NCBI RefSeq assembly: GCF_002005445.1
Contig: NZ_CP014692.1
Location: 744,001 to 808,000, forward strand
Source: Acetobacter aceti
GTDB taxonomy: Bacteria; Pseudomonadota; Alphaproteobacteria; Acetobacterales; Acetobacteraceae
Length of the DNA: 64,000 nt
Reading direction: 5' to 3'
The position numbers were made by a program, and so were the translations under genes. Each line of letters opens with the position of its first letter. Within the stretch, counting starts at the first letter, position 1. Below, in pieces: positions 17,152-57,912 of this stretch. Below the pieces are notes generated by a model. The model made no database searches and was not told where the DNA came from. It saw nothing but the letters and a program-made list of their open reading frames with translations.

Positions 17152-17198
17152 TGGGAACCCAAGATTTTATGGCAATAATATCAGTCACTTAGAGCGAC

Positions 17199-32201: not shown

Positions 32202-32482
32202 CGTATCCGGTCTTCCCCATGGGGCAACTCTATAATCCCGACACCAGCATTCTCGCTGGCATGAGCCGGGATCAGTTGCAGGCAGCGCTCACATCAGCCC
32301 AGAGTGCTTTGATGCAACTTACGACGGGCAGCAAGCCTGTCAGTGTCTCCTACGCACAAGGAGATGGTTCCCGTTCAGTGACATACACGTCCGCCAGTAT
32401 TCCGTCTCTGAATGCCCTGATCATGCAGATCCAGCGACAATTGGGGATTGGCCGGCGCCGTGCCCTGAGGCCGTTCTTCTGA
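32198..32482 (+). CDS. gpW-like head-tail joining protein
   Basis: 94 aa. MSRDQLQAALTSAQSALMQL, VSVSYAQGDGSRSVTYTSAS and IPSLNALIMQIQRQLG match lambda gpW. It stabilises packaged DNA and provides the tail-joining surface under the portal. ATGA overlaps with the upstream gene and abuts the portal gene. Confidence 0.85.
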   Translation: MTYPVFPMGQLYNPDTSILAGMSRDQLQAALTSAQSALMQLTTGSKPVSVSYAQGDGSRSVTYTSASIPSLNALIMQIQRQLGIGRRRALRPFF

Positions 32483-35987: not shown

Positions 35988-37097
35988 ATGTCTGGAACCG
36001 CAACTCCCATGCAGAGTGAAATCAGCACCCTTGCTGGAGCACTCAGCGTCTACTCGACTGCTGAGCTTGTTTATTTTGTCCGCAACCTCAAGCTGGCGCA
36101 GACTTTTCTTCTGGACAGTTTTTTCCCGAATATGGTCGAGTCCGACGCGCCGGAAGTCGCTATAGACGTGGATGTCGGCAAGCGTCGTATGGCACCATTC
36201 TGCTCGCCGCTGGTCGAAGGTAAGCCCGTGGAAAGCCGCCGCTGGCAAACCAATCTGTTCAAGCCAGCTTATATCAAGGATTTTCGAAACCCGGATCTGT
36301 TGAAGCCCGTACGCCGAAATATCGGTGAACGGCTCATGGGTGCCATGTCCCCTGCAGAGCGGCTCGAGGCCAACCTCGCGTGGGAGATAGCGGACCAGAT
36401 CGACATGATCCAGCGTCGGCTCGAGTGGATGGCCGCCCAAGCCCTCGTAAAAGGGTCGGTTACAATCACTGGAGAAGGGTTTCCTGAGCCAATTCTTGTC
36501 GATTTCCAGAGAGACCCGGCGCTCACAATCGCCCTGAGCGGCACTGCTCAATGGGGGCAGACGGATGTTTATCCCTCGGATTATATCACGTCCTGGGCAG
36601 CAACGATGCTGCAGAAGTCAGGAGCAGCTCCTACCGACATCATTTTCACGAACAGCGCGTGGAACGCTTTCAAGAACGATATCAAGGTCCTGAATGCGAT
36701 CTGGATGGACCGGTCTGGCGACAGCAATGTCAATCTGGGCGGCGCCATCGCTCCCGGAGCCATCAGAATGGGTAACTGGGGGCAGTTCCGGCTCTGGCTT
36801 TATAATGACTGGTATGTCGATCCCGATACCGACGTTGAGAGCCCGATGATTCCTGATGGCACAATCGTCATGACATCCCCGCAGCTGGAAGGGACACGTG
36901 CATTCGGGCTGATTCTCGACCCAAAATTCAACTATCAGAGCCTGGCCTATGCGCCAAAGCTGTGGTTTTCGGAAAATCCAGCCGCGATCAACCTGATGAT
37001 GCAGTCAGCCCCCATCGTTATCCCCTCGCGAGTCAACGCATCATTCGCCGCAACTGTAATGGCGCCCGGGGCTGGCGTTCCCGCTCCTGCAATCTGA
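35988..37097 (+). CDS. major capsid protein (gpE-like)
   Basis: 369 aa, a member of the phage capsid E family: FPNMVESDAPEVAIDVDVGK near the N-terminus, QIDMIQRRLEWMAAQALVKG, and a C-terminal LEGTRAFGLILDPKFNYQSL and MMQSAPIVIPSRVNA. It forms the icosahedral shell. Order with decoration and protease genes matches lambda. Confidence 0.92.
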   Translation: MSGTATPMQSEISTLAGALSVYSTAELVYFVRNLKLAQTFLLDSFFPNMVESDAPEVAIDVDVGKRRMAPFCSPLVEGKPVESRRWQTNLFKPAYIKDFRNPDLLKPVRRNIGERLMGAMSPAERLEANLAWEIADQIDMIQRRLEWMAAQALVKGSVTITGEGFPEPILVDFQRDPALTIALSGTAQWGQTDVYPSDYITSWAATMLQKSGAAPTDIIFTNSAWNAFKNDIKVLNAIWMDRSGDSNVNLGGAIAPGAIRMGNWGQFRLWLYNDWYVDPDTDVESPMIPDGTIVMTSPQLEGTRAFGLILDPKFNYQSLAYAPKLWFSENPAAINLMMQSAPIVIPSRVNASFAATVMAPGAGVPAPAI

Positions 37098-38292: not shown

Positions 38293-38484
38293 ATGTTCGT
38301 GAAACCTGCAGATGGCCGAGCGGTGCGCTGGCCTCAGAGCTTGCGGCTGCTCAAAACGACCGGTGAAGAAGTGCCATCGACAGGCTTCTGGCTGCGTGCA
38401 CTGAGCCGAGGCGATGTCCGCAAAGTAAATCGGATATCTTCCGCCCAGATTACAGTATCCAATAAAGAAAAGGGTACAACATGA
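38293..38484 (+). CDS. DUF2635 protein (Mu gp38-like)
   Basis: 63 aa. The sequence FVKPADGRAVRWPQSLRLL and TGFWLRALSRGDV matches the short DUF2635 proteins encoded just upstream of the Mu sheath gene. Function in tail assembly is unknown. ATGA overlap with the sheath gene. Confidence 0.8.
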   Translation: MFVKPADGRAVRWPQSLRLLKTTGEEVPSTGFWLRALSRGDVRKVNRISSAQITVSNKEKGTT

Positions 38485-40064
38485 GTGGTTCGATCACTAT
38501 CCCCGGCTATTCTGATACCAATCGTGTTCCCGGCTTCTATTTCTCTCTGGACAATTCTAAAGCCAATACGGCCAGCGTCACCCGTCGTGTTCTGATCCTT
38601 GGCCAGATGATCAGCGGAAGTGCCTCCCCCGGAGTAGCCAGCCTCTCTGCTGGATACAGCGACGCTGTCTCGAAATACGGCTCCGGCTCGCAATGCTCAG
38701 GAATGGTCAAGGCCTATCGTGCCGTAGACACGCAGGGCGAAGTCTGGGTTCTGCCGCTTGCAGACAGCAGTGCGGCTCAGCCGGCCGTTGGCGGCTTTTC
38801 TATCGCTGGCACTGCGACAGAGTCTGGCACGCTCTCGCTTTATATTGGCGATCAGCTGGTTTCTGTCGCAGTCACAACTGGTGATAGCGCGGCAGTGATC
38901 GCAGAAAACATCATCGTCGCGATTGGCAATACCAGCGGCCTCCCAGTATCTGTCGGCGGCAGTGCAAACATCAATGGCGATCCCGTCACCTTTGAAGGTT
39001 CTACCCTGACCCTGAACGGGAAGACTGTCACGCTCTCAAGCGCTGAAGCATCAGGAAGTACGGTGACTTCGCCAGAGATCATCCTGACGGCTCTGAATAA
39101 AGGTCTGGCAGGGAACGATATGCTTCTTGGCATTGCCCTTCTCGGAACTGCTGGAGGTCAGGCAACGCCATCCGGTGTGGCATTGACCATAAATTCCTTT
39201 TCTGGCGGAACGACAAATCCGACTGATCTGGACATAGTACTGTCCAACCAGGGTGAGCGTGTCTATGATCTGATCATCCATCCTTATACTGACAGCGGAT
39301 CTCTGACAGCGCTCAAAGAGTGGTTGAACGATACGGCGGGCCGCTGGTCTGCAACCCAGCAGCTCTACGGTCACGCCATCACGGCATATCGCGGCACGTA
39401 TGGAGAGGCGACCTCTTTCGGACTGACACTGAACGATCAGCACGCCACCATTATGCCGGTTGCCGACAGCCCGTCGTCTCCACTCGTCTGGGCGGCGCAG
39501 ATAGCAGCGCAGGCTGCAATCAGTATGAGAACGAACCCTGCATTGCCGGTAACAGGTGTGACACTGACTGTCATGCCGCCTACCGATGCAGGCCGATATA
39601 TTCACGATGAGCGGAACAGCCTGCTTTATGACGGCCTGTCGACCTTTACCGTTGACGACAGCGGCACAGTGGTCATTGAGCGTTTGGTAACTACCTATCA
39701 GACCGATGCGGCGGGCCTCCCGGACAACAGTTATCTCGATTTCGAGACGATGATGTGTGCGGAGATCTGCCTGCAGGACATGCGGATCTATCTCGGGTCT
39801 CAGTTCAACGGATACATTCTGGTCCAGGATGGATCGAAAATAGGCGCAGGCATCAAGGCGACAACGGCAGCCCTGATTGGAAAAGCGTGCGCGTCCCGCT
39901 ATCGGTACCAGTGTTTGCAGCTCTGGTGCCAGGATCCCGACACGTTCTCTCAGAGTCTTGTTGCTGAGAACGCTGGTGGGGGCGTCGTGAAACTTCTGAT
40001 GCCATACAATTTCGCGAACCAGCTTCGCGTGATTGCCGGCAATTGTCAGTTCGTGAAATCGTAA
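38481..40064 (+). CDS. contractile tail sheath protein (Mu gpL-like)
   Basis: 527 aa. SGSITIPGYSDTNRVPGFYF at the N-terminus, a middle Ig-like insertion, and C-terminal LERLVTTYQTDAAGLPDNSY, YLDFETMMCAEICLQDMRIY match FluMu/Mu tail sheath proteins. It forms the contractile outer tube, so particles of this phage would be myovirus-like. Confidence 0.92.
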   Translation: MSGSITIPGYSDTNRVPGFYFSLDNSKANTASVTRRVLILGQMISGSASPGVASLSAGYSDAVSKYGSGSQCSGMVKAYRAVDTQGEVWVLPLADSSAAQPAVGGFSIAGTATESGTLSLYIGDQLVSVAVTTGDSAAVIAENIIVAIGNTSGLPVSVGGSANINGDPVTFEGSTLTLNGKTVTLSSAEASGSTVTSPEIILTALNKGLAGNDMLLGIALLGTAGGQATPSGVALTINSFSGGTTNPTDLDIVLSNQGERVYDLIIHPYTDSGSLTALKEWLNDTAGRWSATQQLYGHAITAYRGTYGEATSFGLTLNDQHATIMPVADSPSSPLVWAAQIAAQAAISMRTNPALPVTGVTLTVMPPTDAGRYIHDERNSLLYDGLSTFTVDDSGTVVIERLVTTYQTDAAGLPDNSYLDFETMMCAEICLQDMRIYLGSQFNGYILVQDGSKIGAGIKATTAALIGKACASRYRYQCLQLWCQDPDTFSQSLVAENAGGGVVKLLMPYNFANQLRVIAGNCQFVKS

Positions 40065-41285: not shown

Positions 41286-43352
41286 ATGGCAAACAGCGGC
41301 GTCAAGGTCACGATCAGCGCGGTCGACCGCGCTTCGATGACGTTGGAGAAGCTCAATGCGCGCATCGCTGCCATTCAGGCGCCCGCAAGGCGTCTTCAGG
41401 CCGCTTTCAGCCGCTTCGGAAATGTAACGGGTCTCCGTTATCTGCGAACCGGCATGGATAGCGTCGGTAGAGCTGCTCTTGGCACTTTCCGAACCATGGG
41501 GCAGATCGTACCAGTCCTGGGCGTGATCACGAGCGCCACGTCCATCGCAGGTGTTTATCGTCTGGCCAGCGCATGGGCGCAGATGGGGACAAATCTGCGC
41601 ACGTCTGCTGCGGCCATGGGGATGGCTCCCCAGCGACTGATGGCCATGCAAAACGCCTCACGTCTCGCCGGTGGTTCTGCTGACGCCATGTCCGGTGCCT
41701 TGCAGGGGCTGGCACAAACACGATGGGAAGCAACTCACGGCTTTGCCCCGGAAGCAGTCGTGCAGTTCAAGGCATTGGGCATCAGCCTTGAAGAACTCAA
41801 GCGACTTTCTCCGGATCAGATGTTCGATCGAATTGCCAAGAAGCTGCGTTCCATTCGTGATCCAGCCGCAAAGGTCATTGCTGCAACCGAGATTTTTGGA
41901 GGGGCCGCGCAAGGGCTTCTGCCCATCTTCCAGCAAACGGAAGAGGCCTACCGGGCCAACATCAGGCAGGCTGAGCGTCTGGGGCTGATGAATGAAAAGG
42001 GTGTTGCTGCCGCATCTCGTCTCCAGCAGGCCCAGATCGGGCTACAGGAATCAGTCGAGGGGCTTGGCTATTCGATCGCTGAGTCTCTGGAGCCGGTCAT
42101 CACGCCTGTTGTTGCCCAGATGCGTGACTGGATAGCCGCGAACCGCGAATGGATATCTCAGGATATCGCATCCTATGTTCGGGAGGTCGTGAAATGGTTG
42201 CGGGATGGTGGATGGGACCAGATAAAATCCAGAATTACGGGAGTTTATCAGTCCGTCGAACGGGTCGTTAACTATCTCGGCGGCTGGAAAGCAGCTGCTG
42301 AGGACGTTCTCATCCTGATGACGGCGGCGAAATTCGCGCCGATCATCGGCGGTATCGCCTCGATCGCCGGCGGCGCTCTCAACGTTGCGGCGGCGTTTGC
42401 CAAATGGGCGCTGGAGGCGCGTGGTGCTGAGGCCGCATCCATCGCGGCCGCAAAGGCAGGATCGGTATCGGGCGCCATCGCGGGCGGTGGCCGCTCCGGT
42501 CCAGGCTGGGGAAGTGTCGCGTTAGCCGGCTACAATGCCTACGAGCTTTATCAGAACGCGAAAGACGGCATCTCGACAGGCCAGCAGGATGCGACAAACC
42601 GCCGAGTGATGAATCTACCGGGCCTCTCATGGCTTGGTCGACAGTATGATAACGCGCAGGTCGGGTATGAGAAGCTGACTGGACGCTATTATCAGGCTGG
42701 TTCTCTTCTGCGGGACACCGGCGCAAGTCAGGGGCAATATCAGACGTTCGCCCGGACAGTGGCGGGTATCGAGCACGCCCGATATGACCAGATGGGCGGC
42801 TATCTCAACCACATGGCTGGCCGTTACCAGATGAGCCCTGGGACAATCGCCACAGTGGCGCGTGCGCTGCATATGCCAACACCGTCCCAGAGCGAGTTTC
42901 TATCCAGTCCCGGCCTGCAGGATCGGTTTTTCGAAACCAACGCCGATCTGAATGCCCGTTACCTGGCGAGGCACAGCGCCCAGTTCAGGAATGCGACACC
43001 CGAGCAGAAGCTTGCCATTCTTGGATATGCCCATAATCAGGGTCCAGGAGGTGCCCTGAACTGGCTGGAGACCGGCATCGCACAGAGCGATAGTAATGGC
43101 ACGTCAGGCGACAGGTATTCCTCAGACGTTACAAGAAATTTGTCGGTCCCCTCCCCGCAATCATCCACCGATGACAGGATTGATGCTCTGGGTTCAACGA
43201 TCAGCAAACTACGGCTTCAGATTGAGATCGATCATAAAAACGCACCGGCTGGCAGTCGTGTGAAGGTGCGCAGTGCATCGCCACAATTGGCTGTTCACAC
43301 AACCCAGCAGGCTCGAGCCATGGATCCGGAAGCCAGCGCCGGAGGATATTGA
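41286..43352 (+). CDS. tail tape measure protein with C-terminal lysozyme-like domain
   Basis: 688 aa. The N-terminal half is helical with ISAVDRASMTLEKLNARIAA and a central hydrophobic stretch (FAPIIGGIASIAGGALNVAA). The C-terminal part (VAGIEHARYDQMGGYLNHMA, GRYQMSPGTIATVARALHMP, KLAILGYAHNQGPGGALNWL) looks like a transglycosylase/lysozyme fold with a candidate catalytic Glu in GIEHARY. The protein sets tail length and probably opens peptidoglycan during DNA entry. Confidence 0.88.
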   Translation: MANSGVKVTISAVDRASMTLEKLNARIAAIQAPARRLQAAFSRFGNVTGLRYLRTGMDSVGRAALGTFRTMGQIVPVLGVITSATSIAGVYRLASAWAQMGTNLRTSAAAMGMAPQRLMAMQNASRLAGGSADAMSGALQGLAQTRWEATHGFAPEAVVQFKALGISLEELKRLSPDQMFDRIAKKLRSIRDPAAKVIAATEIFGGAAQGLLPIFQQTEEAYRANIRQAERLGLMNEKGVAAASRLQQAQIGLQESVEGLGYSIAESLEPVITPVVAQMRDWIAANREWISQDIASYVREVVKWLRDGGWDQIKSRITGVYQSVERVVNYLGGWKAAAEDVLILMTAAKFAPIIGGIASIAGGALNVAAAFAKWALEARGAEAASIAAAKAGSVSGAIAGGGRSGPGWGSVALAGYNAYELYQNAKDGISTGQQDATNRRVMNLPGLSWLGRQYDNAQVGYEKLTGRYYQAGSLLRDTGASQGQYQTFARTVAGIEHARYDQMGGYLNHMAGRYQMSPGTIATVARALHMPTPSQSEFLSSPGLQDRFFETNADLNARYLARHSAQFRNATPEQKLAILGYAHNQGPGGALNWLETGIAQSDSNGTSGDRYSSDVTRNLSVPSPQSSTDDRIDALGSTISKLRLQIEIDHKNAPAGSRVKVRSASPQLAVHTTQQARAMDPEASAGGY

Positions 43353-43359
43353 GGACTGA

Positions 43360-44658
43360 ATGAGCGGAACACTTCTGAAAGTAGCGGAAGAATATCTCCA
43401 GTGTTCATTCAGGGGAATTCCGTTCGTTGTTCTCGGTAGTTCCGGCACGAATGGTCGTAAGCAGGCCGTTCACGATTATCCAGGGAGAGACGGGATATGG
43501 GTCGAGGACCTCGGACGGGCCGCTCGCTCCTATCGGATCGTGGGTTTCACGGTTGGTACTCTGTGTTACACCCAGCGGGATCTCTTATCTCAAGCCGCCG
43601 AACAGCAAGGCGCAGGGCTCCTGATGCATCCAAGCATTGGTCTGGTACAGGCCAATCTGATGCGGTTCATCTGGAGAGAGCCGGACGGCCGGAGAAATGT
43701 CGTCGAAATCGAGATGGAGCTGGTGGAGAAGACAAATCTTCTCTCCACTCTGATCGTGACGGCGCTTCATGCAACAATTGCGGTCTCTGCTATTGCTCTG
43801 AGCGCAGCATCATCTTCAAGTTACCAGTCCAGAACTGCGACCTCTCTCGCGCTGGGAAGTTCAGTTATCACAGCTGGCCGTAATGTCGCATCGTCGTGGG
43901 CATCTGATGCCCTCGTCGCCGTGCGGTCTCCACGTGTCCAGGGGGCTGCCGTATCAGTTCTGGATGGCGCTTACGGACGTTATGCAGGCGGCGACGGGTC
44001 TGACATTGATAGTTCGGCAACAATCAGCAGCGTTCTCGCATCACTGACAGCCAGCCGTGCAACAGTTGAGGGGGCGGTGAATGCGTTCGGGGCACTGGAT
44101 AGCGCTGAAGATATTGCCTCAGCGTCACAGTCACTCACCGAGACTCTTCGATCATCGGTTGCTGATCCAGCCGCCCAGATCTCTCTTCTCTGGCCTCTTG
44201 CGTCCTGTTCGCCAGCCATCGTCACGTCAAGCGCTCCGATTGGCGCAGCGATCGCAACGGTTCAGTCGGAAACTGCTGCGTTGTGCCGACGATCCGCCCT
44301 TGCATCGATTGCTCAGGCTTGTTCGGCATGGTTACCATCATCGTCGACGGAAGCGCAGGCAATGACGGAAAATGTAGTAGCTCTGTTCGCAGCCGAAGAA
44401 CTGATTGCAGCGGACGCTGGAGATGACCTTAGTTATCAGGCGCTCCATGCTTTGCGAGCGCACGTCGCGCAGGACCTGCTTGGGCGTGCGGCCAAACTGC
44501 CTGATATCATCACGATTACCAGAAATGCAAACCTGCCGGCGCTCACGCTGGCTCAACAGCTGTACGCCGATGCAACCCGTGCCGATGAGATCGTCGGGCG
44601 CGCAGATCCAATCCATCCGGCCTTCATGCCAACGGAATTTGAGGTGTTATCATCATGA
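43360..44658 (+). CDS. DNA circulation/baseplate protein (Mu gpN-like)
   Basis: 432 aa. The N-terminal domain (LQCSFRGIPFVVLGSSGTNG, HDYPGRDGIWVEDLGRAARS, LLMHPSIGLVQANLMRF) is the DNA circulation N-terminal family. The long Ala/Ser-rich helical remainder is usual. Mu gpN is a baseplate component near the tail tip. Next gene overlaps by 4 bp. Confidence 0.87.
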   Translation: MSGTLLKVAEEYLQCSFRGIPFVVLGSSGTNGRKQAVHDYPGRDGIWVEDLGRAARSYRIVGFTVGTLCYTQRDLLSQAAEQQGAGLLMHPSIGLVQANLMRFIWREPDGRRNVVEIEMELVEKTNLLSTLIVTALHATIAVSAIALSAASSSSYQSRTATSLALGSSVITAGRNVASSWASDALVAVRSPRVQGAAVSVLDGAYGRYAGGDGSDIDSSATISSVLASLTASRATVEGAVNAFGALDSAEDIASASQSLTETLRSSVADPAAQISLLWPLASCSPAIVTSSAPIGAAIATVQSETAALCRRSALASIAQACSAWLPSSSTEAQAMTENVVALFAAEELIAADAGDDLSYQALHALRAHVAQDLLGRAAKLPDIITITRNANLPALTLAQQLYADATRADEIVGRADPIHPAFMPTEFEVLSS

Positions 44659-45794
44659 GCGGCGTGATCTCCCAGATCGAAAGTCTTCTTGGTTACGGGG
44701 CGGCTTCATCAGATAACGTGGTTGCCATAATCGGAAATCAGATGGTGACGGGGTGGACAGATGTAACGATTCGGGTCGGCGTCGAGATCATGCCCTGGAC
44801 TGCGGATCTTGGCATTACGGCCTATCAGCCGCTTTCGGGAGCAACGCTGGCAATCAATGAAGGTGATACGGCCCAGATATATCTGGGCTCGACCCTCATG
44901 ATAACCGGGTATGTCGTCATGGTGGCTGAACAGAAAAGCGCAGACTCTCATTCAATTCATGTTCAGATCGCCAGTAAAAGCATGGATCTGGTCGACTGTG
45001 CGGCAGAATTTTCCACCTATCAGATGAACAGTACAAACGCTCTGGCTATCGCGCGGCGCGTATCCCAGTTTGCGGGGATCGAAGTGTCGTCGATCGATGG
45101 CGCTGGTGAAACGGATATACAACAGTTTTCAGTCATTCTGACCGAAACGGCCTATGAAGTGATCGAGCGTCTGGCCCGGCTTGCCGGTGTCCTGTTTTAC
45201 GACCGACCGGACGGAAATGTTGTGATGTCCCGTGTCGGGTCCGCGCGCATGGGATCAGGTTTCACTATGGGGCGGAACGTCGAAAGCTGCACCCGGGTCC
45301 GCTCTATGGCTGGACGGTATTCGTCCATCATCGGCATCCTCCAGAGCACAGCCCTTCTTTTTACAGAGCCGAACGAGAAAGATTACGTCGGGCAGATGGA
45401 GGCTGTGTCCAGCTCCGCGAAAGCCACCGATCCTGGCATAACGCGCAACCGGCCCATGCTCATTCCCCTCGAGCTTGGAGATGCTGAATACAAGGTCGCG
45501 AAACAGCGTGTCCAATGGGAAGTCAATCGAAGATGGGGGCGCAGCCGCCCGATTACACTCACGGCTGACGGCTGGAGGGATTTGTATGGCGCACTCTGGA
45601 CGCCCAACACAATCGCGCCATTCATGGATGAAAACGGCACATCTACCGATTACGTCATTGGGGAGCTGGTTTTTCACAAAGGGCCAGACGGAACGCGCGC
45701 GGATGTCGTTCTGATGCCGCCAGATGCCTATCAGCCCGAGCCTATTCTCCTGCCCGTCGCATCGAATAAGGCTGCACAGGCTCTCAATAGTTGA
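44655..45794 (+). CDS. baseplate hub protein (Mu gpP-like)
   Basis: 379 aa. GWTDVTIRVGVEIMPWTADL, STLMITGYVVMVAEQKSADS-like region and YEVIERLARLAGVLFYDRPD match Mu gp44/T4 gp27-type hub proteins, which seat the central spike. Overlaps gpN by 4 bp and precedes the gp45 spike gene. Confidence 0.87.
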   Translation: MSGVISQIESLLGYGAASSDNVVAIIGNQMVTGWTDVTIRVGVEIMPWTADLGITAYQPLSGATLAINEGDTAQIYLGSTLMITGYVVMVAEQKSADSHSIHVQIASKSMDLVDCAAEFSTYQMNSTNALAIARRVSQFAGIEVSSIDGAGETDIQQFSVILTETAYEVIERLARLAGVLFYDRPDGNVVMSRVGSARMGSGFTMGRNVESCTRVRSMAGRYSSIIGILQSTALLFTEPNEKDYVGQMEAVSSSAKATDPGITRNRPMLIPLELGDAEYKVAKQRVQWEVNRRWGRSRPITLTADGWRDLYGALWTPNTIAPFMDENGTSTDYVIGELVFHKGPDGTRADVVLMPPDAYQPEPILLPVASNKAAQALNS

Positions 45795-45800
45795 GGTCTC

Positions 45801-46313
45801 ATGACAAGTCCCATCAATCGTCTTTCCAGGCGTGTCTCGATGGCGCTCGGCATCGGTCGACAGACGGCGGACACAGATGAGAGCCAGCCGACTCCGACGC
45901 TCCAGGTTGTTCTGCCAGGTGGCGAAATTCGAGCAGATGTTCCGCTGATGCAGGCCTACGGGTTTGCCAGTCGGCCAGTGCCCGGTAGCGACATCGTGGT
46001 AGGCTTTCTTGCCGGAGACAGGACGCGTGGCGTGGCGATCGCCTGCGGCGACCAGAGAGGGCGTCCGGATTATCTGGAGCCCGGGGAAGTCGCAGTTTAT
46101 CATCCTAAAACCGGTTCATGCGTCTATTTCAGAAGCGACGGATCCATGGCGCTCCGTCCTAATAATAAAAAACTCGAGATCGATGCTGACATCACCGTCA
46201 ACGGTTCGCTTGAAGCGACAGGCGACGTGACGGCCGGCAGCATCTCACTCGAAAGCCACAAGCATACCGGCGTCAAGGCGGGCTCGGATGAGACCGGCGC
46301 CCCAACATCCTGA
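45801..46313 (+). CDS. baseplate spike protein (Mu gp45-like)
   Basis: 170 aa. MQAYGFASRPVPGSDIVVGF, GDQRGRPDYLEPGEVAVYHP and the C-terminal ITVNGSLEATGDVTAGSISL with SHKHTGV are characteristic of Mu gp45 trimeric membrane-piercing spikes; the HKHTG end may bind a metal at the tip. Confidence 0.88.
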   Translation: MTSPINRLSRRVSMALGIGRQTADTDESQPTPTLQVVLPGGEIRADVPLMQAYGFASRPVPGSDIVVGFLAGDRTRGVAIACGDQRGRPDYLEPGEVAVYHPKTGSCVYFRSDGSMALRPNNKKLEIDADITVNGSLEATGDVTAGSISLESHKHTGVKAGSDETGAPTS

Positions 46314-46320
46314 GGTCTGA

Positions 46321-46818
46321 ATGGACATAGCTATTGTCTGGAACGTCGCGGAAGCCCGCGGCGAATGGCCGATTGTGTCCGGTGATCTGGGTCTCGACAA
46401 TCCTTTGCGGTCCGCTGTCATGGTCAGTCTCTTTTCTGACCGCGTCGCGCCAGAGGAGCCATCTCTTCAGGATAGCGCTGTCGGGATCCAGCCCCCCGGG
46501 AACGCTGCTACCAGCGGAAAGAACGACCGGCGAGGCTGGTGGGGCGATGCATACAACGATTTTCCAATCGGTTCGCGGCTCTGGCAATTGCGGCGCGCCA
46601 TAAAAGTGGGTGAAAAAGCTGTCCTGATTGAACTTGAGGCGATCGTTCGTGAAGCTCTGAATTGGCTTATCAGTGACGGGATTGCGGCCCGCATTGATGT
46701 CACGACGGCGTGGAGCGTGACGTCGGCATCAACGGCTGAATTCGCAATCTCAATTTACGAACCATCTGCCGCGCAACCGCAGGCATTTCTGTTTTCATGG
46801 GCATGGGAGGGGCTCTGA
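46321..46818 (+). CDS. baseplate wedge protein (Mu gp46, T4 gp25-like)
   Basis: 165 aa. MDIAIVWNVAEARGEWPIVS and WWGDAYNDFPIGSRLWQLRR are hallmarks of the GP46 family. It joins sheath and baseplate. Its TGA overlaps the ATG of the next gene. Confidence 0.87.
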   Translation: MDIAIVWNVAEARGEWPIVSGDLGLDNPLRSAVMVSLFSDRVAPEEPSLQDSAVGIQPPGNAATSGKNDRRGWWGDAYNDFPIGSRLWQLRRAIKVGEKAVLIELEAIVREALNWLISDGIAARIDVTTAWSVTSASTAEFAISIYEPSAAQPQAFLFSWAWEGL

Positions 46819-47930
46819 TGCCTTATGCAAGACCAACCCTTACTGATTTACGCCAGCTGGTCGTGCAGGATATTCAGAATGGAGGCATTCCCGGTGTCGT
46901 AACGCTCATGCGTTTCTCAGTTCTGTGGGTGATTGCAATGGCGCAGGCTGGCCTCGCGCATCTGCATTATGGTTATCTCGACTGGATCTCGAAGCAGGCC
47001 GTCCCATGGACCGCAACCGATGAAGATCTCGAGGCATGGGGCGCTCTCAAGTCGATTTACCGAAAAGAGGCCGCAAGAGCGACCGGCGCAATTGCTTTCA
47101 CGATTTCGTCCGATGCGGATATCCCTGTGGGAACCGCCATAGTTGCTGGCGGCGTTGATGTCGTCACCACCGCTGACAGCGTGATTTCGGGCACCACGGC
47201 AACAGTGTCATGCGCAGCATCAGAAGCTGGCGCCTCGGGCAATGTTGCTCTCGGAGCAGTCGCCACTCTGTCCAGCCCGATAGCGGGTGTGCAGACCACA
47301 GGAACAGTGGCCATCGCTTTTACCGGCGGCGCTGATGACGAAGAAGATGATAATCTCCGTGACCGGATTATGGCTGCATATGCCAAGGGAGGTGAGAATG
47401 GCTCTTCTGCTGACTATGTGTCATGGGCAGAAGCGGTCTCAGGAGTAACGAGGGCCTGGGTCAACCCTCTGGGCGCTGGCGCCGGAACGGTTGTCGTCTA
47501 TGTCATGCTGGACAGTGCCCGGTCTGCAGATAGTGGATTCCCGCAGGGAACGGATGGCGCCGCGTCTGCTGAAAGCCGTTATCAGGCGGCGACAGGCGAC
47601 CAGCTTCTCGTCGCAAATGCAATTTACACGAAACGGCCGGTCACCGCGCTCGTCATAGTCTGCTCCCCAGTCGCACAGACTGTGAATTTCGTGGTTTCTG
47701 ATCTGGGAAATGACAATACCTCGGACAATCAGGCGTCAATAACAGCTGCATTGCAGGATATGTTCAGACGTCTTTCTGCTCCAGGAGGAACAATTCACCC
47801 AAATTACTGGAATGAGGCAATCGCGGCGATTGGCCTGGACCAGTTCAATGTGACATCGCCATCAGTCCCGGTATCTGCCTCGTCAACTGGATCAATGCCA
47901 GTCTTGGGAACCATAGAGTTTGCGTCATGA
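46818..47930 (+). CDS. baseplate J-like protein (Mu gp47)
   Basis: 370 aa from ATG 46818 (TGATG overlap; a longer frame begins at 46797). LDWISKQAVPWTATDEDLEA-like N-terminus, DEEDDNLRDRIMAAYAKGGE and GVTRAWVNPLGAGAGTVVVY match baseplate J proteins, wedge components that trigger sheath contraction. Confidence 0.9.
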   Translation: MPYARPTLTDLRQLVVQDIQNGGIPGVVTLMRFSVLWVIAMAQAGLAHLHYGYLDWISKQAVPWTATDEDLEAWGALKSIYRKEAARATGAIAFTISSDADIPVGTAIVAGGVDVVTTADSVISGTTATVSCAASEAGASGNVALGAVATLSSPIAGVQTTGTVAIAFTGGADDEEDDNLRDRIMAAYAKGGENGSSADYVSWAEAVSGVTRAWVNPLGAGAGTVVVYVMLDSARSADSGFPQGTDGAASAESRYQAATGDQLLVANAIYTKRPVTALVIVCSPVAQTVNFVVSDLGNDNTSDNQASITAALQDMFRRLSAPGGTIHPNYWNEAIAAIGLDQFNVTSPSVPVSASSTGSMPVLGTIEFAS

Positions 47931-48520
47931 CGGTCCAGGTCTTTCTGGCTGAGTCGTTCGCCAAGGCATTGTCGTCACTGCTGCCTGGTGGCCGTATCTG
48001 GTCACGTGAACCCGATGATACTCCCTCTCTTCTGGCCTTGGCTCTCGGGCAGGTTTATGAGCGCCATAGTGCGAGATCTCTGAACCTTCTGACCGATGCG
48101 TTTCCTGCTTCGACCACAGAGCTTCTTGATGAATGGCAGCAGAGCGTCGGGCTTCCCGATCCTTGCGCGGGCGACAATCCCACGCTGGCACAACAAAGAT
48201 CCCAGATTGTCGCCAGGCTGACGGACAATGGTGGCTCATCAAAGCAGTATTTCATCAGCCTTGCGGCGGCACTCGGTTACACGATCTCGATTGACGAGTT
48301 CGCGCCCTCGCGTTTCGGCCGGAAATTTGGTGGAAAATTCGGCGATGATGACTGGGCCTGCGCGTGGCGGGTCAATATGCCGACATTCACGGTAACAAAT
48401 CTGAAATTTGGTGATCTGTTCGGAAAGTCTTTCGCCTCATGGGGCGACACGGTTCTCCAGTGTGAACTGGAACGAATCAAGCCTGCCCATACAGTCCTCA
48501 TCTTCAACTATGAGAGTTAA
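47927..48520 (+). CDS. baseplate/tail fiber connector (Mu gp48, YmfQ/DUF2313)
   Basis: 197 aa. FAKALSSLLPGGRIWSREPD, TELLDEWQQSVGLPDPC and QIVARLTDNGGSSKQYFISL fit the DUF2313 family encoded between gp47 and the tail fiber in Mu-like phages. ATGA overlap with gp47. Confidence 0.87.
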   Translation: MTVQVFLAESFAKALSSLLPGGRIWSREPDDTPSLLALALGQVYERHSARSLNLLTDAFPASTTELLDEWQQSVGLPDPCAGDNPTLAQQRSQIVARLTDNGGSSKQYFISLAAALGYTISIDEFAPSRFGRKFGGKFGDDDWACAWRVNMPTFTVTNLKFGDLFGKSFASWGDTVLQCELERIKPAHTVLIFNYES

Positions 48521-48523
48521 GTA

Positions 48524-49414
48524 ATGGATTTACTGATTGCGACGGGGTCAGTCCCGCTGGAGCAACGCGACATCGCGCCAACGAGTGGCACGCCACAATG
48601 GGCGACGGATGGTAACCCAGCCACTGGCGTTCCTGCAACCAATTGGCCGGCATGGATGTTCAACATGCTGCTGGCGGAGATGATCAATGTTGTCGATCAA
48701 GCGGGATTGCCCAGATCACTGACCGACTGGACGCAGCTCTATCAGGCGATCAATAAAATTGTCGGGCCTGGCAGGCTCATAAACCGTCAGGCTTTCACGT
48801 CATCAGCCAATTATATTCCCGCTTCAGGTGCGACCCTTGCCAGGGTTCGCGGGTGTGGCGCTGGTGGCCCCGGTGGATATGCCTATCCAAATCCGACGAG
48901 CGGAAGCGTTTCGGCAGGGGGTGGAGGTGGAGCTGGCGCAGAGTGCGATATTTGGATCAGTTTGAGTGGGATAACATCTGTCCCCGTAACTATCGGATCC
49001 CCGGCAGCAGCGATCGCATCGGATGCGCAAAATACGGGGGGTGATAGTATGTTTGGAAACTACGTGACACTCAAGGCTGGGCAAGGAGGCGCTGCAGGAA
49101 TTTCCAGCTCGTCCTCCAGTTCTAGCGTAACGTCTGGAGCGAAGGGTGGTGATTATATTGGTGGCACAGCCTCGTTGCTGCTTACCAGCTCGATCTTAAA
49201 AAAGGGAGCCTCTGGGCCGGTTGGGCTTGCTGTCAATGGGACTGCTGTTCCCGGATTTGGCGCCAGTGCAACATTCGGATCCCCGGGCGCTCCGGGCGGT
49301 GATGGTGCAGTAAACTTTGGTGCAGGCGGCGGCGGTGGGCAGAGTCTGTCACCGGGTGGAAGTCTGGGCGGTATAGGTGGCGGAGCTGTATTCTATGTGG
49401 AGGAATACGCATGA
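48524..49414 (+). CDS. glycine-rich tail fiber/adhesin
   Basis: 296 aa. The N-terminal 90 residues (ATGSVPLEQRDIAPTSGTPQ, TNWPAWMFNMLLAEM) are a fiber attachment region. From residue 115 it is dominated by glycine-rich blocks (VSAGGGGGAGAECDIW, GDGAVNFGAGGGGGQSLSPG) resembling distal receptor-binding tips built of polyglycine helices. Probably part of the host-recognition apparatus. Confidence 0.75.
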   Translation: MDLLIATGSVPLEQRDIAPTSGTPQWATDGNPATGVPATNWPAWMFNMLLAEMINVVDQAGLPRSLTDWTQLYQAINKIVGPGRLINRQAFTSSANYIPASGATLARVRGCGAGGPGGYAYPNPTSGSVSAGGGGGAGAECDIWISLSGITSVPVTIGSPAAAIASDAQNTGGDSMFGNYVTLKAGQGGAAGISSSSSSSSVTSGAKGGDYIGGTASLLLTSSILKKGASGPVGLAVNGTAVPGFGASATFGSPGAPGGDGAVNFGAGGGGGQSLSPGGSLGGIGGGAVFYVEEYA

Positions 49415-49899: not shown

Positions 49900-50393
49900 G
49901 CGGTCTGAATATTTCACAGTTCAAGCGAGAAATAGTGACTCCGGTAGTCGGGATGTTGAATCTACCGGGTGATGGTCTGGCGAGGATCCAGCTTCATACG
50001 GGCATAGATCTTGCGGAAAGTGGCCTTGCGTCTCTGAGGCAAAGCGGCGGTGGACCAGCTTTAGGAATCGGTCAAATGGAGGAGGATACCCATAATGATA
50101 TCTGGAAAACCTTTCTTTCCTCCAGACCTGCACTCGCGCAAATTGTGCGCGGCTTTATGCCAGCACGGTTCAATCCGAATGGTGTCGACGCAGCGGGTGC
50201 TCTGGTGGAGAGCCTGACTTACTCAGTTGCTATGAGTTGCATGCGTTTTTATCGCTCAAGCGTCCTCTTGCCACCGCGCAACAGCGCTATTGCGCAGTGT
50301 CACGCGTGGAAGATGGGATATAACACTCCTTCAGGCGCTGGACGGGTTGACGCCGAGCATATTGCTTTATTTAGCCAGGCAATCGCGGCATGA
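49896..50393 (+). CDS. lysozyme-like endolysin candidate
   Basis: 165 aa from ATG 49896. IDLAESGLASLRQSGGGPAL followed by GIGQMEEDTHNDIWKTFL resembles the catalytic Glu and G-x-x-Q-M-E block of transglycosylase/lysozyme-fold enzymes. No signal peptide is present, so export would depend on a holin. Located between a membrane protein and the spike genes. Confidence 0.6.
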   Translation: MSGLNISQFKREIVTPVVGMLNLPGDGLARIQLHTGIDLAESGLASLRQSGGGPALGIGQMEEDTHNDIWKTFLSSRPALAQIVRGFMPARFNPNGVDAAGALVESLTYSVAMSCMRFYRSSVLLPPRNSAIAQCHAWKMGYNTPSGAGRVDAEHIALFSQAIAA

Positions 50394-50932
50394 CACTCGC
50401 GGCACTACCGGACGGGTTCGTTCCCTCGGATATGAGGACGTATGACCCGGATCAGTCTGTCGCCGCGCCTTTTGGCGTTAACAGGTTCCTGGGAGGTGTC
50501 GGACAGGACGCATGTTCCTGCTCCCCTCATCGCATGCCAGCGAAATCATCTGCAGATATTATCGATTATACACTCGATCTTTCGACGTGGCTTGCAAGCA
50601 CAAACGACACAATCGTCACAGTAACGCCAATTATTCAGACATTACTTGGGATCTCCTATGATCTGGCTGCGATTATGGGAGGCGTCGTTGATAATTATCA
50701 GGCAGTCATCATCTTTGCGGCTGGTCCGCCAAATTATTTAGTCGCGGTCAGTTACAAAATTGTTACGGCCAGAGGATTGGTCCGCGTCGTACCGTTTATC
50801 GTGCCTATCAATGACATCACCAGCGCGACGGATCCGCCAGCGCCAGACGCCATATCATACGCTGTCACCATGGACAGTTCGGCAATCACGCTTAATTCCT
50901 CAGCAGTCACGCTGGGCGCCAAAATATCCTGA
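50390..50932 (+). CDS. phage tail/spike-associated protein (180 aa)
   Basis: Begins MTLAALPDGFVPSDMRTYDP and ends with a repetitive SSAITLNSSAVTLGAK. Strand-rich; no definite family. ATGA overlap with the lysozyme-like gene, and it directly precedes the GH30 spike, so an adaptor or chaperone for the spike is possible. Confidence 0.55.
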   Translation: MTLAALPDGFVPSDMRTYDPDQSVAAPFGVNRFLGGVGQDACSCSPHRMPAKSSADIIDYTLDLSTWLASTNDTIVTVTPIIQTLLGISYDLAAIMGGVVDNYQAVIIFAAGPPNYLVAVSYKIVTARGLVRVVPFIVPINDITSATDPPAPDAISYAVTMDSSAITLNSSAVTLGAKIS

Positions 50933-50949: not shown

Positions 50950-53900
50950 ATGAGCGGAACAACAACTTCCGGCAGCACAGTCATGTCTGGTGGCATTCTG
51001 GTTAATATCACGCCAGTTACCGGCGGTGGAGAACTGGAGGCCAACGGTAGTGCTGCTCTCGTCGATGCGAGCGGTCATACTGTCGCAGTTGGTGGACAGG
51101 ATTACCGTGTCGGCGATGTGCTGGACGCCTTGGTCGATGGCGCCTTCGTGTCGGGTTCGTCCGGTACGGACATCTCCGGCCAGCCGGTTCTGTTCAACGG
51201 CGCGACCACGACCGTCAGCAAAGCGCTGGCGGCAGCGGCAGAGAGTGGTGGCAGCGACGTGACACCCACCGTGCTCGCTGCGGGAAACAGCTTCCAGCCG
51301 CGCTCGATCATCAGCACCGCGCTGAACAGCAGCAATTACCAGACCGCCCTGCTGCGCCAGTCTCCGCCCGCGTCTGGCGATGTGTCCGCTGCTACGGCAA
51401 CGCACATCGTCACAATTGATCCCTCGACCCTCAAGCAGAATTTCTACGGACCAGGCGGCGCGCTGACCGGTGGCGCTGCTTACGCAATCATGAATTACAT
51501 GACGCGGGACCAGCGGCATCAGTTTTTCACGATGCTCAAAAATGACGGTTTCCGCTCTATTCGTATTGCCATCGGCGGAAACGATTTCGATTACCGTCCA
51601 TACTGGACGCCATGGGACAGCGGCGTATTCGATGTCTCCAGTGATTTTCAGGATGTGATTCCCTGCCTCCTTGAATGGCTGGCGGTGGATCCGTCGCTGC
51701 GCTGCATGGCGACGCCCTGGTCTCCCCCCGCCTCCCTGAAAGACTCTGGCGTTCTGAAGGGCGGAAGCTTCATTTCCAGCGCGGCGAATTACCAGACTTA
51801 CGCGGCCATGCTCTGTCAGTGGTGTGTCTTCTACGCCTCTCTAGGCATTCCTGTTTACTACGTTGGTATTGGCAATGAGCCACAACAGAAAACAGCCGAG
51901 TATCCAAAATGCGGTATGTCCACTGCGGACACTGCCGGGATTGGTGCAGCGCTTGAAGCTCTCCTTGCTAAGGCCACGTTCGCCAATGGCATCACGCCGA
52001 AAGTGACATCATCTGACACGTCATGGGGGTCGGCGCGGACATGGCTGCCGGGCGACCTCGCGACCGGTGCGTTCGGCGCAATGGCATTCCATTGGTACAA
52101 CGGGAATCCTGGCAACATTTCCTCCTACACCACACAGTATCCGAATGTGGATGTGCTGTGCTCTGAAGCGATGCTCATGAGCGGCAGCCCCGGCCTACAG
52201 ACGCAGATTACGCAGCTGATCGGCGATTACTGCACATGGATGATGAGCCTCGGCGCAAAAGCCATCATGATGTGGAATATCATCCTGGATCAGACGAACA
52301 GCCCCGCCAACGGAAATACTGGCGTGAACGACGGCGGGAACTGGTCGGGTTGGTACGGGGCTTCCCTACACGTCAACAACACGACCGGCGTCGTCACACC
52401 GTCGGCTGATTATTATGTGATGGCCCATCTCGGGCGCATGTCCGGCCCAAACCGGAAAATCTGCGGCTTCACCGCTTTCGGGCAGGGTAAAGGGGCGACC
52501 GATCTCGTCGTGCAGGCGACCTATGACACCGTGACCGGTGAACGCGGTGTGTTCCTATGGAATCCGACCTCACTGGATATGCGGGTAATCATCAAGGACG
52601 CCGTTACCGGTAATGGCTACCCGGTGATCGTTCAGGCCAACTCCATCCGCACTGAACTGTATTCCGGCGCTGATATCGTCTCCGCCTCTTCGAATTTCCT
52701 CGCGGCGGCCCTTTCGGATCTGCCGGCAGCTCTGGCCGCGCCTGGCCTGACACTGACGGCAGGCGACAGTCAGCTCGCAGTCGGGATCACCCCGGCTAGC
52801 GGCACCACGCCGCAGGCTTATGCGGTCTATTGGGGATATTCAGCCACCGCGTTGCAGCGCGCCGCGATCGTGACGGCCAACGGCACGAACGTCGTCAATT
52901 TCACACTGAACACCGCATCATGCGGTCGCTCCGACACGAACGGCATCGTCAATGGCACACCCGTTTATGTGACGGTTTCCGCGATCAACGCCCAGAACGT
53001 CGAGGGCGCTCAGTCGGCCTCGCAGTCGGCAACGCCGGTTGCTGGGGGCACCACAACGAACCCGACGAAATATTCTGTCGGCCTGTCGTCTTCGTCCGTC
53101 GTCTCTGGCGGCACAACAACCGTCACCTTCACTCTGGATGCTGCCGCCACGAGTGCTGTCACGATCACCCCGAGCGACAAGAGCGCTGGCGGAACGTGGG
53201 ATAACGGCACGCTGACGATCGCTGTCGGTTCAACGTCCACCAGCACGACCTACACGGCAGGCTCGACTGCGGGGACTGTCACACTGACAGGCACGAACAC
53301 CAGTAGTCTGACGGCTGGAACGGCAACTCTGACCGTATCTGCTCAGGCCACGGCCCCCGGTGCGCCTACACTCACCCTCAAGGCGGGAGACAGCCAGATC
53401 GCGGCAACCGTTGCGGCCCCGGCCAGCAATGGCGGATCCGCGATCACAGGCTATCCGATCGTGGTCAATGACGCGACGACACCAGTCACCACACTGACGG
53501 CGCCGGGAACCTACACGATCACTGGCCTCACGAACGGGACGTCCGCTACTGTGAAAGCCGGAGCTACGAATAGCGTGGGAACGACGTATTCGGCTGACCA
53601 GAGCGCGACACCGGTTGCAGCACCGGCGGCCACATCACTGCTTCAGACCTATATGACCTCGGGTGTATCGGCCCCATCGGTCGCATCGAAAATAGACCTG
53701 TCATCCGGTCTGGTTGAGATGATGCTGCATGCAAACCTCAGCACCATCTCACCGTCAGGCAATGTCACCCTGATCGGCTGCACGGACGCCTACAAAGTCA
53801 CCGCGATGCAGACTGCATCCAAGTCGCTTTGCGCTCTGGTTCTCGGGACTGGAACGACCGGCCCTCTCGGTCTTGTAGTTTCTGACGGTTCAAAAACGAA

Positions 53901-54327
53901 CTACACATGGCCCGCCTCCGGGTTCGGATGTACTGACCTCGGCATTGCTGCGGGTGCCGATTTCTATCTGTTGAGTGCGATCAACACCAGTTCGGCAGCC
54001 GTTACTGACAAATTTGGCAATTCGGTTCCGGCAAAATCGTGGACAGCCTATACTAGCACGGATGGCGTCACATGGACGCAGAAGGCGACCACGGCCATAA
54101 CGACTGGTCTGATTTCTGCAGCGTCGATATCAGCCCCATATTGTGTTGGCATCGGCAACGGCATCACCAATCCCAATAAATACTATCAGGCGGCGATGTA
54201 TTGCGGAACGACCGAGGTGTTCAACGTCGATTTCACGGATCAGACGGTTGGTGCTGCAACAGTCACGGATGCAGAGAGTAATGTGTGGACGATGAATACT
54301 GGTTCCACAATCGTGGCGGCGTCCTGA
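50950..54327 (+). CDS. tail spike with glycoside hydrolase family 30 domain
   Basis: 1125 aa. Residues 1-150 form a strand-rich, Gly/Ser-rich phage anchor. Residues about 155-570 match GH30: NFYGPGGALTGGAAY, RIAIGGNDFDYRPY, ATPWSPPASLKDSGVLKGGS, acid/base Glu310 in GIGNEPQ and nucleophile Glu406 in DVLCSEAM, then MMWNIILD and a small beta-domain. Residues about 595-690 and 800-890 are FN3-like, about 700-795 Ig-like, and 895-1125 strand-rich, possibly carbohydrate-binding. No signal peptide. It probably cleaves a beta-linked cell-surface polysaccharide during adsorption. Confidence 0.85.
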   Translation: MSGTTTSGSTVMSGGILVNITPVTGGGELEANGSAALVDASGHTVAVGGQDYRVGDVLDALVDGAFVSGSSGTDISGQPVLFNGATTTVSKALAAAAESGGSDVTPTVLAAGNSFQPRSIISTALNSSNYQTALLRQSPPASGDVSAATATHIVTIDPSTLKQNFYGPGGALTGGAAYAIMNYMTRDQRHQFFTMLKNDGFRSIRIAIGGNDFDYRPYWTPWDSGVFDVSSDFQDVIPCLLEWLAVDPSLRCMATPWSPPASLKDSGVLKGGSFISSAANYQTYAAMLCQWCVFYASLGIPVYYVGIGNEPQQKTAEYPKCGMSTADTAGIGAALEALLAKATFANGITPKVTSSDTSWGSARTWLPGDLATGAFGAMAFHWYNGNPGNISSYTTQYPNVDVLCSEAMLMSGSPGLQTQITQLIGDYCTWMMSLGAKAIMMWNIILDQTNSPANGNTGVNDGGNWSGWYGASLHVNNTTGVVTPSADYYVMAHLGRMSGPNRKICGFTAFGQGKGATDLVVQATYDTVTGERGVFLWNPTSLDMRVIIKDAVTGNGYPVIVQANSIRTELYSGADIVSASSNFLAAALSDLPAALAAPGLTLTAGDSQLAVGITPASGTTPQAYAVYWGYSATALQRAAIVTANGTNVVNFTLNTASCGRSDTNGIVNGTPVYVTVSAINAQNVEGAQSASQSATPVAGGTTTNPTKYSVGLSSSSVVSGGTTTVTFTLDAAATSAVTITPSDKSAGGTWDNGTLTIAVGSTSTSTTYTAGSTAGTVTLTGTNTSSLTAGTATLTVSAQATAPGAPTLTLKAGDSQIAATVAAPASNGGSAITGYPIVVNDATTPVTTLTAPGTYTITGLTNGTSATVKAGATNSVGTTYSADQSATPVAAPAATSLLQTYMTSGVSAPSVASKIDLSSGLVEMMLHANLSTISPSGNVTLIGCTDAYKVTAMQTASKSLCALVLGTGTTGPLGLVVSDGSKTNYTWPASGFGCTDLGIAAGADFYLLSAINTSSAAVTDKFGNSVPAKSWTAYTSTDGVTWTQKATTAITTGLISAASISAPYCVGIGNGITNPNKYYQAAMYCGTTEVFNVDFTDQTVGAATVTDAESNVWTMNTGSTIVAAS

Positions 54328-54814: not shown

Positions 54815-55363
54815 ATGAAAAACATCTCCCGTCGCAATCTCCTGCGCTCGTCCGCCCTCGGTCTGGCCGGGGCCACTCTCGCAGCCTGTACTGTCTCCAC
54901 GTCTAGCGGTGTCACCACTGTCACGCTCGACGTGACGAAAATCAAAAACTACGGGCAGGCCGGGCTCAATGCCGCCGCCGCTGTCATCGCGTTTTCGGCG
55001 CAGTTCCCGGCGATCTCTGCCTATGTCCCGGCCATTCAGGCCGCCGAGGTTGCCCTGTCCGGTGCGCTGACGGCGTTCTCGACCGCTGCCGGGTCCACGC
55101 TGACGATCAGCTACGACAACACTGACTGGAAAACCCGCGTCGATAGCGTGCTGTCTGACCTGTCCACAGTGGCCAGCGCGATTGAGTCCGCGATCTCGGG
55201 TGCCGGGTCGGCACTGTCTGCATCCGTACTGTCTGACGCCAAGACGGCCCTGTCCGCGCTGGAGACTGTTATCTCCGTATTCAAGGGCCTCCTTGGTGTG
55301 TCTGCCGTCCGGTCCAGCACCGGCATGACCGAGGCTCAGGCTCTGGCTGCTCTCGGCGTGTGA
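54815..55363 (+). CDS. lipoprotein of unknown function
   Basis: 182 aa. The N-terminus MKNISRRNLLRSSALGLAGA has a twin-Arg-like motif and a lipobox LAAC with the modified Cys at residue 25. The mature part is Ala/Ser/Val-rich, mostly helical (LTAFSTAAGSTLTISYDNTD in the middle). It could be a spanin-like or host-surface-altering protein. First gene of the cassette after the terminator at 54773. Confidence 0.65.
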   Translation: MKNISRRNLLRSSALGLAGATLAACTVSTSSGVTTVTLDVTKIKNYGQAGLNAAAAVIAFSAQFPAISAYVPAIQAAEVALSGALTAFSTAAGSTLTISYDNTDWKTRVDSVLSDLSTVASAIESAISGAGSALSASVLSDAKTALSALETVISVFKGLLGVSAVRSSTGMTEAQALAALGV

Positions 55364-55458
55364 TCGTCGCATTCATTCTCGCCTTCCTCGTCGGTTTCTG
55401 GACCGGCGGGGTCTGCGTGGCTCTTGTTTTTGCTCTCCACTGGAAGCTCACCCTGTGA
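55360..55458 (+). CDS. 32-aa single-helix membrane peptide
   Basis: GTG start overlapping the lipoprotein stop and ending on the start of the glycosyltransferase gene (GTGA). One hydrophobic helix, VAFILAFLVGFWTGGVCVAL then VFALHWKLTL. Double coupling supports translation. Confidence 0.5.
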   Translation: MIVAFILAFLVGFWTGGVCVALVFALHWKLTL

Positions 55459-56495
55459 AAAATCGTCTCCTGTTCATCCTCAAGAGCCGTGAGGGCGATT
55501 GGGGCTATTCCGGCGCGCGCGAATCCGGACTGTCCAATTCTGTCCGCTTCGTGGTGGACATGCTCCGCGATAACGGCATCGAGGCCAAGGCGGTCGAAGT
55601 CCCGGACAACAATGCGATCGACCGGGATGTCGCGGCCTATCGGCCAACGCATGTCATCATCGAGGCGTTCTGGGTCGTGCCGGAAAAGTTCGACGTTCTG
55701 AAACCGCTCCATCCGGGCGTGCAGTGGATCGTGCGGAATCATTCAGAAACGCCATTTGCAGCGAATGAAGGCTGCATCTTCGGCTGGACCGTCGAGTATC
55801 TGCGCAGGGGCGTCGAGGTCATGTGCAATGCGCCGCGTGCGGTACAGGACATGGCGATTGTGGCGATGGCCGCTCGCGTCGATACGTCTCTCGTGACCTA
55901 TGGCCCGAACGTCTACCCGGTCCCGCGTCTGTGCGACATTCAGCCTCATGAACGCCGGTCGGACGTTGTGAATATCGGCTGTTTCGGTGCGATCCGTCCA
56001 CTCAAGAACCACATGACGCAGGCGTTGGCCGCCATTGCTTTCGCCCGGACCATCGGCGCGAAACTGCGGTTTCATGTCAACGCCACGCGCATCGAGGGCG
56101 GTGGCAACTCCATCCTGAAGAACCTGCGGGAGCTGTTCGGGCGGCTGGACTGCGCGGACCTGGTCGAGCATGGCTGGATGCCGCACGCCGAATTTCTCTC
56201 TGTCCTGCGCGGCATCGACATTCTCGTGCAGGCGTCCCTGACCGAGACGTTCAACATCGTGGCCGCCGATGCGATGGCCGCCAGCGTGCCGGTGCTGGCG
56301 TCAGACGAAATCCCGTGGCTCGGACATTACGCCGAGCGTGATCCTCTCAGTGCTGCGGATATGGCGTCCGGCCTGCTGACGATCTGGCAGGAGGATGACC
56401 GGACACGTCTGGCCCGGCTGCTCAGGCAGCGACGGGACATGGAGCGGTATTGCTCGGTCTCGGCGCTGACGTGGGTGAGGAGGTTTGGAGCATGA
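55455..56495 (+). CDS. phage-encoded glycosyltransferase (GT4/GT-B-like)
   Basis: 346 aa. IGCFGAIRPLKNHMTQALAA, FHVNATRIEGGG and the C-terminal SLTETFNIVAADAMAASVPV with ASDEIPWLG follow the nucleotide-sugar-binding half of GT-B enzymes. It probably acts on a surface glycan or on phage components. Its position after the late genes, beside a lipoprotein and papain-like gene, suggests lysogenic conversion or virion modification; the substrate is unknown. Confidence 0.75.
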   Translation: MKNRLLFILKSREGDWGYSGARESGLSNSVRFVVDMLRDNGIEAKAVEVPDNNAIDRDVAAYRPTHVIIEAFWVVPEKFDVLKPLHPGVQWIVRNHSETPFAANEGCIFGWTVEYLRRGVEVMCNAPRAVQDMAIVAMAARVDTSLVTYGPNVYPVPRLCDIQPHERRSDVVNIGCFGAIRPLKNHMTQALAAIAFARTIGAKLRFHVNATRIEGGGNSILKNLRELFGRLDCADLVEHGWMPHAEFLSVLRGIDILVQASLTETFNIVAADAMAASVPVLASDEIPWLGHYAERDPLSAADMASGLLTIWQEDDRTRLARLLRQRRDMERYCSVSALTWVRRFGA

Positions 56496-57836: not shown

Positions 57837-57912
57837 TGGCGTCCCGTACGGGATTCGAACCCGTGTTACCGCCGTGAAAGGGCGGTGTCCTAGGCCTCTA
57901 GACGAACGGGAC
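57837..57912 (-). tRNA. tRNA-Glu(UUC), containing attR
   Basis: Reverse strand folds as a 76-nt tRNA with encoded CCA: acceptor GTCCCGT/ACGGGAC, anticodon arm CCGCC-CTTTCAC-GGCGG with anticodon TTC, and T-arm ACGGG-TTCGAAT-CCCGT. Bases 57837-57883 are the prophage attachment core, so integration regenerated an intact tRNA from the 3' half carried by the phage. Confidence 0.97.

Follow-up and report, generated by a model that had tools for sequence, protein, structure and literature searches.

The gene at 50950..54327 (+ strand) of the window, that is, of the whole 64,000-nucleotide stretch of the Acetobacter aceti genome analyzed here, encodes a protein of 1125 amino acid residues that most probably serves a temperate Acetobacter myovirus as a receptor-destroying tail spike, cleaving a surface polysaccharide of the host. 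Its putative catalytic domain was assigned to glycoside hydrolase family GH30 through matches to family models, PDB sequences, and known folds; this family is better known from human lysosomes and from microbes that feed on fungal walls. The placing of the GH30 tail spike of Acetobacter prophages as a variant of the known tail-spike depolymerase kind is well supported.

Prophage setting and domain layout

The gene belongs to a 40.7 kb prophage bounded by a 31-bp identity between attL (17199..17229) and the 3' end of a tRNA-Glu gene (57837..57912, − strand), where attR spans 57837-57867. The integrase (17357..18409, phrog_1) and a repressor-like regulator (25811..26158, phrog_8 and phrog_3) are encoded on the − strand. 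On the + strand follow the terminase large subunit (29720..31435), the portal (32482..34164) and major head protein (35988..37097), both recognized by PHROG matches, the contractile tail sheath (38481..40064, phrog_165), which identifies a myovirus, and the tape measure protein (41286..43352, PHROG match). The baseplate genes (43360..48520) include hub (phrog_184 and phrog_177) and wedge components (phrog_180, phrog_6, and phrog_203), as well as an ORF at 45801-46313 that matches phrog_20516, a family whose function is not known. The sheath and baseplate genes upstream bear out the myovirus tail locus proposed in the initial annotation, and its acetic-acid-bacterial host is the genus Acetobacter, in which genome G015 also carries a copy of the GH30 gene. 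Of note, the terminase match covers the second half of its ORF, while the first half matched a family named 'DNA primase', which probably reflects how that family is named in the library. A second integrase (15582-17162) lies just beyond attL, beside the tRNA-Glu repeat, and suggests a second element or a remnant at the same site.

The baseplate genes are followed by a tail-fibre-like protein (48524..49414, +; phrog_863 and others, no Pfam match) and a fibre-tail adaptor (50390..50932, +; Pfam PF23148 Gp77, E-value 2.2e-9, 38.1 bits against a cut-off of 27), which directly precedes the GH30 gene. Downstream are a small protein without a family match (54815..55363, +), the start of which looks Tat/lipoprotein-like by eye, and a GT4-like glycosyltransferase (55455..56495, +; phrog_2170, class moron). 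Similar small proteins recur near the GH30 genes of relatives (L021:19384, L024:17566, and L026:7-561).

The N-terminal region of the protein (residues 1-110, 50950..51279) is presumed to be the attachment part. It has no family match and no recognized anchor family, and its structure prediction is poor. The GH30 domain extends over residues 114-574 at most (51289..52671) and is confident from residue ~151. It is followed by strand-rich FN3/Ig-like modules (residues 599-890, 52744..53619) and a C-terminal beta-sandwich domain (residues 896-1125, 53635..54324). The structure models were built on 22 and 6 sequences. The full protein gave no match in the PHROG search, and no signal peptide was seen by eye.

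Family membership and active site

The Pfam GH30 barrel model scored 24.5 bits on the window protein against a gathering score of 23, and up to 105.7 bits on its relatives. The companion model GH30C scored above its cut-off in L024, L025, and L026, and below it in the window protein. The predicted fold of residues 114-574, a (beta/alpha)8 barrel with a side beta-sandwich, matched GH30 structures over this whole range. The structure comparison that the initial annotation had proposed as a check thus agreed with the Pfam and PDB sequence matches in confirming its GH30 core. A right-handed beta-helix spike was rejected, as the predicted catalytic domain is a TIM barrel.

The structural reference was BT3312, the GH30_3 endo-1,6-beta-glucanase of Bacteroides thetaiotaomicron (PDB 5ngk/5ngl; available text of PMC5481569, also the source of the active-site residues), which shared 22% identity with the window protein in the fold alignment and, unlike the presumed phage spike, is a bacterial surface enzyme. 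Lower profile scores were obtained for SrfJ (2wnw, 192 bits) and human glucocerebrosidase (1ogs, 150 bits), both of which are cellular proteins and not phage spikes. GH30_1 glucosylceramidase ranked third by profile score and by Z, in a ranking of scores only.

Glu310 (51877..51879) and Glu406 (52165..52167) align with Glu238 and Glu339 of BT3312, on strands 4 and 7, so the two catalytic glutamates named earlier are upheld. As read from these residues, the domain would be a retaining beta-glycosidase with Glu310 as acid/base and Glu406 as nucleophile. The BT3312 residues were further mapped on 11 spike rows (P0002 included, L026 cut short) as well as on 17 further GH30 rows that are presumed to be cellular (G404 and P0003-P0018). 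In the window protein, the BT3312 residues of subsite −1 are matched by Asp212, Trp257, Asn309, Glu310, Glu406, and Trp442, with only Asn244 of this set absent. Across the rows, Asp131, Trp179, Asn237, and Glu238 of BT3312 were kept in all 10 spikes that cover them and in 17/17 others, and Glu339 and Trp377 in 11/11 spikes and 17/17 others. Asn244 and Asp286 occurred in no row besides BT3312.

The surroundings of this pocket differ. His281 was present in 17/17 other rows but in 0/11 spikes, Asn282 in 17/17 versus 2/11, Cys393 in 16/17 versus 0/11, Cys396 in 16/17 versus 2/11 (the alignment is gapped there), and Trp345 in 5/17 versus 0/11. Subsite −2 of BT3312 is lined by Trp345 and the Cys393-Cys396 pair, all of them absent from the window spike; Gly412, Thr457, and Trp468 stand in their places, with the Cys loop gapped. 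The −2 and positive-side residues of BT3312 are mostly absent from the spikes, which argues against plain beta-1,6-glucan as the substrate. A plain endo-1,6-beta-glucanase was also rejected because the NCBIfam equivalog NF053856 (GH30_3 endo-1,6-beta-glucanase) scored 108.3 bits against a cut-off of 700.

A kept sugar site with differing surroundings points, at the level of sequence, to a changed polymer rather than to lost activity. The same pattern could also be produced by a virion spike that trims side chains in exo mode or only binds, so that its cut serves reversible attachment and not depolymerization. Such binding could come from the FN3 modules and the C-terminal domain. However, a changed polymer would equally remove the outer subsites of one particular enzyme, and the cleft cannot be judged from a predicted model. 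We regard this reading as rather improbable, and depolymerization by the spike remains the preferred one.

Relatives and the link to the virion

A GH30-core profile matched 7 of the 49 Acetobacter genomes at 11 places, all within long open frames of 912-1468 residues; short stand-alone GH30 genes were not found by this profile in these genomes. Since two of the places are mirror copies on one contig that encode identical proteins, 10 loci are distinct. These copies (L050 and L051, contig C82 of G062) are mirror images of a prophage tail region ~440 kb apart and are either a duplication or an assembly fault. The protein P0019 of A. sicerae is the one read from G028:C43. In the class-wide sample of 385 genomes, with only four other genomes of the host's family among the genomes listed, two genomes matched, the host genome counted in. 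The class-wide match G404 was rejected as a phage gene because, in the 4.2 kb seen, it encodes a stand-alone protein of 504 residues whose start looks like a signal peptide by eye.

In 8 of the 10 distinct loci, the GH30 gene is preceded by tail genes that PHROGs recognize (window, L021, L022, L023, L024, L025, L050, and L052). L026 is ended by its contig end, and in L053 the GH30 gene adjoins genes that look housekeeping-like by eye, with no tail genes seen within 19 kb. The Gp77 adaptor gene was found ahead of the GH30 gene in all six loci tested, directly adjacent in the window, L022, L024, and L050, and with one gene intervening in L021 and L025. The adaptor was also present in both of two related prophages without GH30, where it is followed by a GH43/GH32-like protein below the cut-off (L065) or, further down, by a CotH kinase (L062; domain at L062:5187-6575, within the tail locus). 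In a third related prophage, L060, two large proteins after the tail genes gave no Pfam match; both have signal-peptide-like starts by eye.

In L052, the tail-fibre family phrog_7760 (2.1e-6) matched residues 87-148 of the same ORF that encodes the GH30 domain. In L021 and L025, a separate gene lies immediately before GH30, and its end shares 44-45% identity with residues 56-150 of the L052 protein. The attachment part thus seems to be fused to the enzyme in L052 and encoded separately in the other two phages. These two likenesses are the best evidence that such GH30 proteins would sit on phage tails, and they come from relatives of the window protein. The earlier designation as a tail spike stands as a strong inference from the upstream adaptor gene and the tail-fibre domain fused in L052, and not as a demonstration. 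Of note, the separate gene (L021:11786-12781 and L025:15029-16099) has a signal-peptide-like start by eye, which is odd for a tail protein. A CBM5/12 chitin-binding-type module near the N-terminus passed its cut-off of 26.2 in the L023 GH30 protein (28.5) and fell just short of it in L050 (26.0).

The position of the gene near attR, with the tail genes on one side and a glycosyltransferase moron on the other, together with the location of L053 outside a tail locus, would also suit a lysogenic-conversion enzyme that is made by the lysogen, secreted or freed on lysis, and kept outside the virion. Such a moron is very unlikely, given the adaptor gene directly upstream, the shared ORF of the tail-fibre and GH30 domains in L052, and a window protein in which no signal peptide is apparent by eye. 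Least probable of all is a degenerate, non-catalytic GH30 barrel kept as a lectin, as the divergent family and the window protein's bare excess over the Pfam cut-off might suggest, because both glutamates and the other tested −1 residues except Asn244 are invariant in all spike rows that cover them.

In a tree of 34 GH30 cores, the 10 spike rows formed one side of a branch with support of 100/99. The truncated L026 was dropped, L051 (second G062 copy, identical protein) was omitted, and columns filled in <30% of the rows were removed, some rows having extra length. The 24 other rows, presumed to be non-phage, came from searches seeded with the spikes, except BT3312 (a PDB match), so closer kin may be missing from this tree.

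The FN3/Ig modules are common to the GH30 spike and to GDSL proteins of the host genus, one of them in the same genome. Their identity was 45-50% in the two proteins compared (L027 and L029), which suggests that parts have been exchanged. The GDSL/SGNH proteins with FN3 modules lie amid housekeeping-like genes (L027:11530-14046 in the same genome, L029, L031, L032, and L033), and several Acetobacter genomes appear to carry them at one and the same site. Because another Acetobacter tail locus, L068, likewise encodes a GDSL protein, the L027-type protein may be a domesticated spike.

Proposed function and comparison with known systems

In the proposed mechanism, the N-terminus would be held on the baseplate, probably via the Gp77-type adaptor encoded just upstream, the FN3/Ig modules would form a stalk, and the C-terminal domain would bind sugar or trimerize the spike. 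The GH30 domain would cut a beta-linked, probably glucose-containing polysaccharide of the host surface, allowing the virion to reach the membrane. A beta-glucan or acetan-like polymer, put forward in the initial annotation, is a candidate for this substrate. Receptor change after lysogeny by phage-encoded enzymes is known from textbook cases. Here, the adjoining glycosyltransferase may alter the same polysaccharide and so prevent the adsorption of sister phages, which is the weakest step of the proposal. Glycosyltransferases or acyltransferases with passing matches were found beside the GH30 gene in 5/10 distinct loci (window, L021, L023, L024, and L026), a count for which the ORFs beside GH30 in the other five were scanned in part (L052: none), so this conversion step is not general. 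An ORF near the contig end in L025 had a sub-threshold match to a branching glycosyltransferase, the L022 contig ends ~540 bases past the GH30 gene, and the neighbor ORFs tested in L050 and L053 gave no such match. It is possible, though doubtful, that the spikes make up a GH30 subfamily confined to phages of Acetobacter, with remodelled outer subsites and directed at a new polysaccharide. In this reading, they would occupy a position behind the common adaptor in which spikes can be exchanged, and the prophage glycosyltransferases or acyltransferases would modify the polymer that the spikes attack, closing the host to further entry after lysogeny.

A tblastn search of 50,697 phage records with two queries matched 3 and 4 records, two Salmonella records among them. 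MT836348 (L034) and MT836184 (L070), 'Bacteriophage sp.' records from faecal samples, were rejected as phage GH30s because their neighboring ORFs resemble, by eye, SusC/SusD-type Bacteroidetes polysaccharide-utilization contigs. In BFVD, an FN3 protein ranked first (2.5e-10), and none of the best 50 matches, many of them unnamed, came near the E-values of the PDB GH30 matches. The matches listed in a protein search with ten spikes included the window protein, P0002, other GH30 proteins, and FN3-type matches. IMG/VR yielded 0, 3, and 1 loci, each of which had a 100-base probe in common with an Acetobacter stretch of this set, and a plasmid search gave 21 records, every one <60% identical.

Phage tail-spike depolymerases are mostly right-handed beta-helices; of the 984 fold hits that DepoScope obtained for phage proteins, 10 were TIM barrels, and its available text names no GH30 (PMC11326577). 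The window spike resembles these depolymerases in genome place, modular layout, and presumed role, but is a TIM barrel. No GH30 barrel tail spike was found among the papers listed, in the accessible parts of the open-licence literature on GH30 phages, tailspike folds, and Acetobacter phages, and together with the DepoScope count this agrees with the earlier view of the spike as unusual. The nearest report concerns a Ceduovirus adhesion-device domain (L16c2/ORF36), likewise on a phage, as presumed here, for which the authors give Foldseek similarity to an endo-glycosyl hydrolase, GH30. It was rejected as a precedent because a GH30 barrel needs more than the 132-133 residues aligned in the table of that paper's available part, where L16c2 is matched to the 147-residue chain 2zew (PMC12474359). 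The SGNH-hydrolase receptor-binding proteins of Klebsiella prophages are likewise non-beta-helix enzymes of temperate phages, but are esterases and not glycosidases, judging from the accessible text of PMC13123978. The L068 GDSL protein, with its related Ig modules, is comparable to this Klebsiella case. Myovirus particles are reported among the temperate phages surveyed in acetic acid bacteria (PMC8566455), in the available text of which 'glycos' and 'hydrolase' are absent. As far as their accessible text goes, an Acetobacter prophage survey mentions a hydrolase without its family (PMC9379143), and GH30 is absent from the many GH families named in a paper on the vinegar virome (PMC12428672).

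At least one depolymerase predictor, DepoScope, was trained without TIM barrels, according to the available text of PMC11326577, so such spikes may be overlooked. With one catalytic pocket kept and its surroundings changing across 11 spike rows, substrate switching becomes testable. If the proposed function is true, phages would have a further glycosidase family at their disposal against surface sugars, and an enzyme with specificity for the surface polysaccharides of Acetobacter would become available.
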